Assembly: GCA_028275925.1 (NCBI GenBank)
Contig: JAPWTS010000001.1
Span: forward strand, 1-64,000
From: Thermofilales archaeon
GTDB lineage: Archaea; Thermoproteota; Thermoprotei; Thermofilales; Thermofilaceae
Length of the DNA: 64,000 nt
Reading direction: 5' to 3'
Shown: in pieces, positions 1-2,851 of the stretch
Numbering within the stretch: the stretch's first letter is position 1
Layout of the letters: every line of letters starts with the position of its first letter
Position numbers and translations under genes: made by a program
Notes under the pieces: model-generated
Seen by the model: the letters and a program-made list of their open reading frames with translations, nothing else
Told to the model about the DNA's origin: nothing
The model's database searches: none

Positions 1-759
1 GGTTTAGACCCCGAAGAGGTTCTCGCGATACTGAAGAAGCTGCACTCGTTCGGGCTGGTCCAGCGGTGGAGGGGCAGCTACACGGGCTACATACTCACCG
101 CGCGGGGATACGACTGCCTGGCTTTAAACGCGCTAGTGAAAAGAGGGGTTCTGGAGAGCGTTTCGGCATCACCCGTAGGTCGGGGCAAGGAATCGGACGT
201 CTACAAGGGGGTCACTCCAGCCGGTAGGCTGGTCGCGGTAAAGTTCCACCGGGTGGGTCGCACGTCGTTCAGGCAGACTAGGCGGTTGAGAGCTTACGTG
301 GGCGATAGGCGCCACATATCGTGGCTTTACCAGTCGAGGCTTGCGGCCAAGAGCGAGTACGAGGCGCTGAAAATCCTCTTTTCCGCTGGAGTATCCGTTC
401 CAGAGCCGGTGGACTGGAACCGCCACGTTGTCGTGTGCGAGTACATAGATGGTGTAGAGCTCAGCGAAATCCCACCTCTCAGCGACGCGATCTCGTTTAG
501 GGAGCAGCTATTGGAGGAAGTGGGGAAAGCCTACCGTGCCGGTGTAGTGCACGGGGATTTGAGCGAGTACAACGTGCTCGTCGCGGGGGATAAGCCAGTG
601 CTCTTCGACTGGCCGCAATGGGTCTCGAGCGCGCACCCCTCGGCGCTCTACTACCTGAAGAGGGACGTCGAAACGATACTGAAGTTCTTCAAGAGGAAGT
701 ACGGCCTAGATTATGATCTTCAGGCCACGCTAGAGCGCCTGCTGGGCGCAGCCACGTGA
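1..759 (+). CDS. rio2: Rio2 atypical serine/threonine kinase, 5' end cut by window edge
   Basis: Rio2 is an ATPase/kinase that acts in the cytoplasm in late maturation of the small ribosomal subunit. The frame is open from base 1. The first ~45 residues seen are the end of the Rio2 N-terminal winged-helix domain. The kinase fold follows, with a P-loop-like GRGKESDVYKG (~60-70 of the visible protein), the Lys in AVKFHRVG, the catalytic loop HGDLSEYNVLV (~183) and the metal-binding Asp of LFDWPQWV (~202). The GTG at 136 is an internal codon, not the start, because the winged-helix sequence continues in frame upstream of it. The N-terminus lies outside the window. The winged helix separates it from Rio1. 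Confidence 0.93.
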   Translation, partial: GLDPEEVLAILKKLHSFGLVQRWRGSYTGYILTARGYDCLALNALVKRGVLESVSASPVGRGKESDVYKGVTPAGRLVAVKFHRVGRTSFRQTRRLRAYVGDRRHISWLYQSRLAAKSEYEALKILFSAGVSVPEPVDWNRHVVVCEYIDGVELSEIPPLSDAISFREQLLEEVGKAYRAGVVHGDLSEYNVLVAGDKPVLFDWPQWVSSAHPSALYYLKRDVETILKFFKRKYGLDYDLQATLERLLGAAT

Positions 760-774
760 ACCACAACCAAAGCC

Positions 775-830
775 CTTAAAAACTTGATAGCGCGTCTCCC
801 CTGGAAAGACCCCGAGGGGAAGGAGGGGGG
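775..830 (+). promoter_or_regulatory. TATA box and strong Shine-Dalgarno for the DUF460 gene
   Basis: A TATA-like CTTAAAAAC lies at 775-783 and would place the transcript start near 805. A purine run GGAGGGGGG at 822-830 then sits 5 bases before an in-frame CTG at 836. No ATG, GTG or TTG occurs in the frame between the upstream stop (TAG at 788) and 917. The signals therefore point to a CTG start. Confidence 0.55.
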
Positions 831-835
831 TCGCG

Positions 836-2851
836 CTGTTTAGGAAAATCATAGGCGTCGACCTACTGCCGGGGGAGGCCCCTACTTCCACGAAAGCGCC
901 GCGCTTCGCTTACGTCGTGATGGTAGATGGGGCTGTGAAAGAGAGGGGTACGGCCACTTTGGCGGAACTGCTGGCGCTAGCGCAGAGGATGCGCGCGGAC
1001 GCGATCGCGATTGACAACGTGTACGAGCTCGCGCCCTCGCTCGAGGAGCTGCAAAGCCTATTGAACTCCTCCGTGCACACGCCGAGGCTGGTTCAAGTAA
1101 CGGCGATCGGCGACAAAGTGTACCAGCTGTCCTCTTTAGCCGCCTCGCTCGGCTTGGGGGGCGGGAAGCTGAGTCCCGAGCAGGCGGCGGAGGTATGCGC
1201 GCGGCTCTGCTTCATGGGGGTCGGCTCGGAGCTTGTGCTGTTCGAGAGGGGTGAGACGCGCGTTGTAGTCTCTAGGGGGCGCCAGCCGGTCCAGGGGGGA
1301 ATGAGCGCGGAACGGTACAGGAGGAACATAGAGGGTAGGATCCTGCTGAAAACGAAAGAAATTAAAAATATTTTAGATTCTAAAGGCATCGATTACGATA
1401 TGTTTATATCTAAAAGTGCTTACGGTATTGAGCGCAGTGTTTTCATCGTTTACGCGCCTCGCGAGGAGCTTTTCGGGCTCGTGAAACCCGTGCGCGACCA
1501 CGATATCCAAGTGCGCGTTGAGCTGGTCGAAAAGCGCGAGCCCTTCTTCGCGCCTCTCGCATCGCAGCCGAGAAGAGCGCGCAGCGAGCCCGAGTACTTG
1601 ATAGTGGGCATCGACCCGGGCGTAACCACAGGCGTGGCCGCGCTCACGCTCAACGGAGAGCTGAAAGCGCTTTTCTCCGCTAAGGAGCTGGGGCGCGGCC
1701 AAGTCGCTAGAATCCTCCTAGAGATGGGCACGCCGGTAATCGTAGCCACTGACGCGTCCCCGCCGCCCGAGTACGTTAAGAAGCTGGCCGCGATGCTCGA
1801 CGCCGCGCTCGTCGCCCCTCAGAAGCCGCTGACTGTAGAGGAGAAGAGGCGCCTAGTGAGCGAGTACGTGAGCTCCTCGGTTCAGCAGCTCAAGGTGAGG
1901 GACGCGCATCAGAGGGACGCTTTAGCGGCCGCCCTCAACGCCTACTCGCAGCTGCAGCCGAAACTCGCGGAGGCGCGCGAGAGGGTGCGCCGCCTGGGGC
2001 TCAGCATTCCGCTTGAAGAAGTAGAGGCTCTCGTAGCTAAGGGCTTCGCGATATGGGACGCTATAAGGCAGGTGTCCCGCGCATGCCTTGTACCAGAGCG
2101 CGAGCAGCGCATCCCCAGACCGACAGATAGAGCGAGTTCGGCTTTCGTAGAAAGCTTGATAGACAAGCTCAACGATGCTTACACACGGATACAAAAACTA
2201 GAGTTTGAAAGGGAAAAATTGTTAGAGAAAATCAAAATTTTGGAAGATCAATATGAGAAGCTTTTAAATGTGCAAGCATACGAAGTCAGGAAAGAGAAGG
2301 AAATAGAATCATTAAAAATTAAAATTGATATGATTTTAAAGGAAAATAATATGCTGAAAGAATATATTAAAAGAAAAGAGGATGAGCTTTCGGTGATGGA
2401 GGACGTAATGCTTAAAGTGGCGGCGGGGGAGGCGATTCTAGCACTTAGGTTCAGCACGCTCGATCGCGCGCTAAGCGCACCTCATGCTAGCGGCGTTGCC
2501 GTCGTTGGAACGCTTCGTCCAGAAGATTTAAAAAACTTTCTAGAAATAAGAAGTAAAAATAAAGTTAACTTGAAAGCGATAATATGCGAACAGGATTTCC
2601 CAGATAGCTTCGCCATAGAATTGGCTTCCTTTGACATAGCATTATTATCGTTAAGCGAAGTTAAACCTTTAGCGCGCGTGAAAGATGTGTACGTCTTTAA
2701 GCGAGAAGATATCGAGTGGGCAATATCTGAGAAGCTCAAGAGGCTGGAAGAAGCGGCAAAGGATCGAGTGAAAATAATCGTGAAGAACATACTGGAGGAT
2801 TATAGAAGCGACCGAAGGCGGTTAGCTAAATCTTACGATCGAACTGTATAA
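836..2851 (+). CDS. DUF460 protein with two RNase H/RuvC-like folds and a coiled coil; probable CTG start
   Basis: This belongs to the archaeal DUF460 family, predicted RNase H-fold nucleases with no settled function. From CTG 836 the protein is 671 aa. An N-terminal RNase H-like segment carries a GVDLLPGE strand (residues 7-14). A second one carries GIDPGVTTGVA (~258-268), the classic YqgF/RuvC first strand with its catalytic-type Asp. A Lys/Glu/Ile-rich coiled coil runs from ~435 to 528, followed by a C-terminal domain. The conventional starts at 917 (GTG) or 920 (ATG) would delete the first Asp strand, so they are probably wrong. The coiled-coil stretch (about 2150-2440) is far more AT-rich than the rest. 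It stands alone after rio2, with its own promoter. Confidence 0.8.
   Translation: MFRKIIGVDLLPGEAPTSTKAPRFAYVVMVDGAVKERGTATLAELLALAQRMRADAIAIDNVYELAPSLEELQSLLNSSVHTPRLVQVTAIGDKVYQLSSLAASLGLGGGKLSPEQAAEVCARLCFMGVGSELVLFERGETRVVVSRGRQPVQGGMSAERYRRNIEGRILLKTKEIKNILDSKGIDYDMFISKSAYGIERSVFIVYAPREELFGLVKPVRDHDIQVRVELVEKREPFFAPLASQPRRARSEPEYLIVGIDPGVTTGVAALTLNGELKALFSAKELGRGQVARILLEMGTPVIVATDASPPPEYVKKLAAMLDAALVAPQKPLTVEEKRRLVSEYVSSSVQQLKVRDAHQRDALAAALNAYSQLQPKLAEARERVRRLGLSIPLEEVEALVAKGFAIWDAIRQVSRACLVPEREQRIPRPTDRASSAFVESLIDKLNDAYTRIQKLEFEREKLLEKIKILEDQYEKLLNVQAYEVRKEKEIESLKIKIDMILKENNMLKEYIKRKEDELSVMEDVMLKVAAGEAILALRFSTLDRALSAPHASGVAVVGTLRPEDLKNFLEIRSKNKVNLKAIICEQDFPDSFAIELASFDIALLSLSEVKPLARVKDVYVFKREDIEWAISEKLKRLEEAAKDRVKIIVKNILEDYRSDRRRLAKSYDRTV

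Follow-up and report, generated by a model that had tools for sequence, protein, structure and literature searches.

The gene for DUF460 (COG2433), an uncharacterised archaeal protein, appears to be translated in the stretch studied here from a CTG codon at position 836, a conclusion that is well supported by sequence comparison, though without protein or ribosome data. Judged by sequence, near-cognate starts recur in DUF460 genes across several archaeal families and represent a conserved trait, not a one-off. We consider it probable that this near-cognate codon is under selection and that DUF460 output is set by the stringency of initiation, with feedback, as in infC, being the likeliest purpose. 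In the accessible part of a review (PMC7531240), archaea are said to start translation at AUG, GUG and UUG, and the retention of a normally rejected start from species to species points to control of archaeal translation through the start codon. A search of titles and abstracts in the open-licence literature on DUF460/COG2433 and archaeal non-AUG starts found no report of a near-cognate DUF460 start among the matches listed.

The start region of the DUF460 gene

The window, that is, the whole stretch of DNA analysed, comprises the first 64 kb of its contig, from a genome of 1.95 Mb in 142 contigs with 95% completeness. The features around the start are as follows.

1..759, + strand: RIO2 kinase gene, its 5' end cut by the contig start (Pfam scan: RIO1 domain E 1.2e-51, Rio2_N E 5.4e-10)
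775..782, + strand: AT-rich TATA-like stretch CTTAAAAA, read from the sequence, a possible promoter element by inference only
788..790, + strand: in-frame stop TAG, upstream bound of the DUF460 frame
822..831, + strand: Shine–Dalgarno (SD) region GGAGGGGGGT, best pairing GGGGGGU at 825-831 with a pairing energy of -14.5 kcal/mol
836..838, + strand: CTG start codon, the only in-frame candidate, its column compared across relatives
836..2851, + strand: DUF460 (COG2433) coding sequence, 671 residues (Pfam scan; model mean pLDDT 89.1)
917..922, + strand: GTG and ATG (residues 28-29), the first ordinary start codons, rejected as start on alignment and model

The end of RIO2 (759) and CTG 836 are separated by 76 bases. 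After the TAG at 788-790, the DUF460 frame reads CGC GTC TCC CCT GGA AAG ACC CCG AGG GGA AGG AGG GGG GTC GCG, and from 836 it continues with CTG TTT AGG AAA ATC ATA GGC GTC GAC. ATG, GTG and TTG are absent in frame from that stop until GTG 917 and ATG 920, and CTG 836 is the sole NTG codon between the stop and the conserved strand, so that the original prediction of CTG 836 as the only plausible start, no ordinary codon lying between the stop and the Gly-x-Asp strand, is upheld. The predicted spacing of the SD is also recovered, since GGAGGGGGG occupies 822-830 and is followed by 5 bases and then the CTG. The putative transcript start that the original prediction puts ~30 bp before the CTG rests on the AT-rich stretch at 775-782. 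Folding of the RNA from 803 to 880 revealed no special hairpin (z 0.04).

G7 and D9, numbered from the CTG, are invariant in 64/64 aligned orthologue rows, and the strand that carries them is β-1 of a confident model. The N-terminal strand and its Asp are conserved, as had been claimed, and the check named with that claim, alignment of DUF460 relatives, finds the strand retained in those aligned. Such proteins would lose this invariant strand in automatic gene calling, as happens in the window, where the mechanical list of open reading frames (ORFs) chose GTG 917 as the gene start. Because the model begins with the Gly-x-Asp strand, which does not vary among the 64 aligned orthologues, neither GTG 917 nor ATG 920 is a credible start; either would remove the invariant G7 and D9, strand 1 and most of strand 2.

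Start codons in relatives and control genes

The relatives were collected in several ways. A gene-order search gave a match in 26/27 genomes; a single-protein query of genome contigs gave none, and an alignment query, used instead, yielded 364 relatives, the best 80 of which entered the survey. With 59 more genomes out of 241 matching, the survey is a sample, not a census, except for two families that were searched in full (matches in 18/20 and 36/40 genomes; 30 loci kept from each). The start was readable in 261 of 277 loci, which came to 154 after merging identical ones and to 153 usable after one with too little upstream DNA was dropped. Of the 16 loci without a readable start, 14 are C-terminal pieces or unrelated coiled-coil matches (L028, L082, L293, L295, L297 and L300-L308); the other two, L084 and L085, were missed by the motif pattern although an ATG is present.

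Within the genus, CTG TTT AGG is found again in two of the three other genomes (L003 and L004), without ATG, GTG or TTG, and the third (L005) has GTG. The L003 start reads stop, GTA, CTG, the upstream frame ending two codons before the CTG. Readthrough into DUF460 from the frame upstream is conceivable in L003, in which the two share a frame, but was rejected for the window, where RIO2 lies in a different frame. Elsewhere, the same column holds TTG in L006, ATG in L011 and ATA in L015; L013 has ATA there with GTG two codons earlier, and L211 has TTA with GTG at -8. In L007, L008 and L023, no ATG, GTG or TTG is found near the conserved start, and ATA, ATT and ATC, respectively, stand behind strong SDs.

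Across the sample, ATG, GTG or TTG is present at codons -16 to -3 before the Gly-x-Asp in 118/153 orthologue starts, in some by chance, and the majority of relatives use one of these codons; all three are missing from that range in the remaining 35/153. Because the range was set after the data had been seen and a canonical codon would fall within it by chance about half the time (our own estimate), 35 is neither a clean lower nor a clean upper bound. At 20 of these 35 loci, the start is confined by an in-frame stop no more than 16 codons away, 8 of them without any ATG, GTG or TTG before the Gly and 12 with only one, at -1 or -2. These 12, together with the choice made by the plain ORF list, are what can be said for a protein that starts downstream, at GTG 917 or ATG 920 in the window and, among the relatives, in some cases at an ATG or GTG immediately ahead of the Gly-x-Asp. 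Such a start is nevertheless very improbable, as the other 8 boxed-in relatives lack even a codon at -1 or -2, and it would leave the in-frame near-cognate codon and its SD unexplained.

A strong SD, defined as -9 kcal/mol or better at a spacing of 4-9 to some in-frame codon, is present at 33 of the 35 loci. At SD spacing, 28/33 have a near-cognate codon in frame (CTG 14, ATA 5, ATC 4, ATT 3, ACG 2), whereas the counts in other frames are 3, 2, 3 and 2 of 32-33; the Fisher p of 4e-10 for 28 versus 3 of 33 is overstated, the sequences being related. Where a canonical codon exists, near-cognate codons occur in 16/77 loci in frame and in 9 and 18 of 78 out of frame. For seven of the 35 (L079, L098, L108, L193, L209, L289 and L337), the range tested contains no near-cognate codon; several of them have a canonical codon further upstream, and L108 has ATA at -13 with a strong SD, beyond the range tested. 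L193, L209 and L289 show neither an ordinary nor a near-cognate start codon at SD spacing, L289 having GTA in the start column.

Conservation is seen best at the level of the codon in the family that contains Pyrodictium (f29; Pyrodictium and Pyrodictiaceae records), in which the start column of 18 distinct loci holds CTG 15 times, GTG twice and GTA once. CTG accounts for 17.5% of Leu codons in the DUF460 genes of this family, and among the 33 further columns in which Leu occurs at least 12 times, no single codon takes a share above 0.67. Since CTG fills 15/18 positions though it makes up 17% of Leu codons, the codon and not the amino acid is conserved; on codon usage alone, the column is not explained by a Leu residue and is explained by a putative start codon. 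The SD in this family is mostly GGGGTG at a near-constant distance from the start. It should be noted that some loci also have TTG at -5 or -6, and CTG is not the sole candidate in each. In the Staphylothermus-containing family (f16), one part has ATA, ATC or ATT, and other branches have plain ATG. Conservation of the codon cannot be demonstrated there because ATA, ATC and ATT also encode Ile, and ATG stands at -1 in 7/9 near-cognate loci; the support rests on SD spacing and on L191 and L210, which are without even that ATG. A further family (f25) has ACG in 2/8 loci, one of the two also with GTG at -11.

The same comparison disposes of a sequencing or assembly error in the window, which might have been suspected of a genome that, with 142 contigs and 95% completeness, looks like a metagenome assembly. 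Two further species and 15/18 loci of another family share the CTG at this column, and loci with CTG include one-contig genomes (G227 and G245). As a general explanation of the CTG, error is already refuted; since the assemblies of other species carry the codon at the same column, there is next to no chance that a wrong base produced it.

Whether start selection is simply loose across the lineage, DUF460 being one of many genes with odd starts, depends on other genes. In 20 Thermofilales stretches, a gene was flagged when its first canonical codon came 3 or more codons after the aligned region begins. DUF460 was flagged in 6/20, versus none among the genes that we take, from their sequences, to be MAT (0/19), RIO2 (0/18), eL13-like (0/18) and phosphoesterase (0/12) (p 8e-5). 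A canonical codon is in reach at 30/30 loci of aIF2-gamma and 29/29 of Kae1 with an N terminus (30 genomes), both weak controls, as their search ranges reach 40 codons, and aIF1 has an ordinary ATG start in all 15 genes parsed of 22. In the Kae1 gene of G002 (L223), the sole canonical codon at -16 to -3 is a GTG at -3 with a weak SD; in three other members of the genus, Kae1 has one at -7 to -9. Between stretches of two Pyrodictium-like genomes, 40/156 orthologous gene pairs were flagged, one of which was judged real. By our own reading, nearly all other flagged pairs either are not genes or start normally, with conserved DNA directly upstream of the start. The pair judged real is listed here.

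L345, from base 1305 down, - strand: guaA-like gene, presumably GMP synthase glutaminase (named from its sequence), with a boxed-in CTG, in one of the two Pyrodictium-like genomes
L355, from base 545 down, - strand: the same gene, with a boxed-in CTG, in the other

The guaA-like gene reads stop-GCC-CTG-CAG with an SD spacing of 7 and has no ordinary start before a conserved GFGGQY. In one Thermofilales genome, an ORF that we assume from its sequence to be TruD-like (L152, - strand, offset 11694 in the reverse complement) has no ATG, GTG or TTG before its conserved N-terminal stretch. Near-cognate starts are thus rare in these genomes, though not unique to DUF460. While both genes lend something to lineage-wide looseness, this account is unlikely in the face of 0/67 control genes from four groups in the Thermofilales stretches, of the canonical codons of aIF2-gamma and Kae1 (weak as these controls are) and of a single real case among the 40 flagged pairs.

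The SDs in front of the near-cognate DUF460 starts are strong. For control starts the median is -7.7 kcal/mol, with 18% at -12 or better and 6.4% of 235 at -14 or better, compared with -14.5 kcal/mol for the CTG of the window; the median for the 28 near-cognate starts is -12.4, after preselection at -9 or better.

Domains and gene neighbourhood

The protein matches the DUF460 profile PF04312 with 136.6 bits against a curated cut-off of 28 (E 5.7e-40). Its parts, including a C-terminal domain that follows the long helix in the model, are arranged as follows.

836..1220, + strand: N-terminal domain with RNase H-like layout and invariant G7 (854-856), D9 (860-862) and D60 (1013-1015), from model and alignment
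1199..1585, + strand: middle domain with an invariant Gly-Gly (GGMS at 1295-1306), from alignment, model and fold comparison
1592..1966, + strand: RuvC/Tex-like RNase H fold domain, overlapping Pfam DUF460 (VIA Z up to 12.0)
2138..2422, + strand: long coiled-coil-like helix, residues 435-529, from the model and PDB profile matches

In the model, the N-terminal secondary structure runs E4-10, E23-30, E33-41, H42-52 and E56-59. The name RNase H fold is inferred for this domain from the predicted layout, with no fold search of that part. For residues about 253-377, the modelled fold gives Z 10-12 to RuvC and Tex, and D260, D306 and D361 are invariant in 64 rows; a RuvC/Tex RNase H-like fold with acidic residues is thereby predicted, whereas there are no data on nuclease activity. 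This agrees with the available portion of an earlier account (PMC3985635), in which DUF460 is classed as an RNase H-like family that is confined to archaea, stands near Tex and is related to Holliday junction resolvases. Only one RNase H-like domain was detected there and more were suspected; the present analysis adds an N-terminal RNase H-like domain, an S10-like middle domain and the unusual start.

The middle domain, modelled alone with a pLDDT of 88, resembles domain 2 of bacterial-type release factors and uS10 (Z 7.0-9.3 over 70-96 of 129 residues), with the caution that Z below about 8 may reflect only a common arrangement. Among the 50 VIA rows listed for it, 48 are bacterial-type release factors or small-subunit ribosomal protein chains, the latter unnamed in the table and presumed by us to be uS10, and aeRF1 is absent. 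Foldseek, run with both models, returned nothing at E 0.001 or better, and when the profile of the whole protein was searched against PDB sequences, the top 60 of 763 rows all fell on the coiled-coil part.

A second likeness concerns the loop GG-x-S-x-x-R-[YF], which is followed by a long helix in DUF460 as in aeRF1/VLRF1, to judge from the accessible text of PMC6514570, in which a term search found no mention of DUF460 or COG2433. The Gly-Gly is invariant in 55 members, and the next residue is M in 41, S in 6, W in 5, A in 1 and T in 1, one member falling outside the GG-x-[ST] pattern. Profile matches are weak. With hhalign, the middle domain aligns to the GGQ loop of aRF1 with probability 40 over 31 columns, residues 1-250 give 28, and four other sets give 0.2-0.6 (the MAT and eL13 sets with 12 and 8 sequences and loose motifs); the acVLRF1 profile matches 18/55 members, at best with E 0.0022 and 18.7 bits against a cut-off of 27.1. 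DUF460 nevertheless has GGM, not GGQ, so that the criterion of the catalytic motif is not met; the match covers only about 31 residues, and the middle domain is of the bacterial release factor domain 2/uS10 type, unlike the RNase H fold of aeRF1. The likeness to the GGQ loop is therefore a lead, and membership of the release factors is not claimed because the Gln is missing.

RIO2 precedes DUF460 in the same orientation, at a distance of up to 1.4 kb, in 91/127 loci with at least 700 bases upstream (79/109 without duplicates), and this adjacency suggests a link of DUF460 to maturation of the small subunit. In the Pyrodictium-containing family, RIO2 is upstream in 0/18 loci, and 5/6 neighbours inspected are divergent. 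The linkage, together with the upstream frame that in L003 stops two codons short of the CTG, could also mean that ribosomes ending RIO2 reinitiate at the next near-cognate codon and thereby relax the choice of start. Such coupling is doubtful to a high degree, given that RIO2 is missing upstream in precisely the family in which CTG is most conserved, and that 76 bases intervene in the window. The RIO2 neighbour, the S10/release-factor-like middle domain and the RuvC/Tex-like domain fit a ribosome-linked role, by which this uncharacterised protein is placed in ribosome biology.

Initiation stringency and known systems

In bacteria, IF3 represses starts other than ATG, GTG and TTG, as well as its own ATT (E. 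coli) or ATC (Streptomyces) start, for feedback, as described in the available part of PMC5472188. For Sulfolobus, the accessible portions of PMC6237735 and PMC8211752 state that aIF1 promotes the discrimination against non-canonical starts. CTG, ATA, ATC, ATT and ACG all belong to the codons that initiation-fidelity factors refuse while accepting ATG, GTG and TTG. For DUF460, we propose that the 30S subunit would be held by the very strong SD and that initiator Met-tRNA, whose use is inferred, would decode a codon that differs from ATG by a single base, selection maintaining this kind of start in several Thermoproteota families. Given that fidelity factors reject this class of codons, DUF460 synthesis should follow the looseness of start selection: output of the protein would rise in proportion to the laxity with which small subunits choose their starts and would be shut off under stringent initiation, control by aIF1 being likewise an inference. 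The likeliest, and again inferred, purpose would be feedback, in which DUF460, probably a small-subunit factor, is produced at times when subunits are immature or without aIF1. The DUF460 leader could then be regarded as a natural reporter for aIF1-dependent fidelity.

The main rival accepts the same start and regards the near-cognate codon as a fixed brake, without feedback, that keeps a potentially harmful RNase H-fold nuclease scarce. No regulator is required for it, and the RuvC/Tex-like fold with its invariant acidic residues is in keeping with it; however, a weak SD would be a simpler brake, and the SD of the window is strong (-14.5 kcal/mol, against the control median of -7.7), a strong SD with a poor start being the combination expected for control. 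The brake remains a serious but less favoured possibility. The pcnB gene of E. coli, which encodes poly(A) polymerase, has an AUU start. It offers a parallel as an RNA-processing enzyme held down by a near-cognate start, and differs in that the near-cognate starts of DUF460 come with strong SDs, a feature superfluous in a simple brake.

Control by initiation stringency, the preferred reading, has precedents. In sigR of Streptomyces, a GTC start repressed by IF3 ties expression to the stringency of initiation, as reported in the part of PMC5472188 at hand and as proposed for DUF460; sigR differs in encoding a regulatory sigma factor, in being bacterial and in its codon, and the effect has been demonstrated experimentally for sigR and not for DUF460. 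The bacterial infC gene, which encodes IF3, is autoregulated and starts with AUU or AUC, resembles DUF460, on the information available from that source, in having a start other than AUG, GUG or UUG that is odd in different species and in belonging to the translation apparatus, which is inferred for DUF460. The infC-type criterion of an odd start conserved between species is met, with CTG in 15/18 loci of the Pyrodictium-containing family and near-cognate starts recurrent elsewhere, though not universal. In contrast, DUF460 is archaeal, has no IF3 or aIF1/SUI1 match in the Pfam scan, the aIF1 genes being separate, and has not been shown to be subject to feedback; its codon varies (CTG, ATA, ATC, ATT, ACG), and most relatives have ATG, GTG or TTG in reach. 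It is thus possible, and no more than a tentative extension, that DUF460 is the archaeal counterpart of infC in logic: a protein that would mature or police the small subunit with RIO2 and sense its own sufficiency through a near-cognate start that only loosely discriminating subunits, immature or poor in aIF1, accept, the trait being old in Thermoproteota and kept, lost and re-made by single-base changes.
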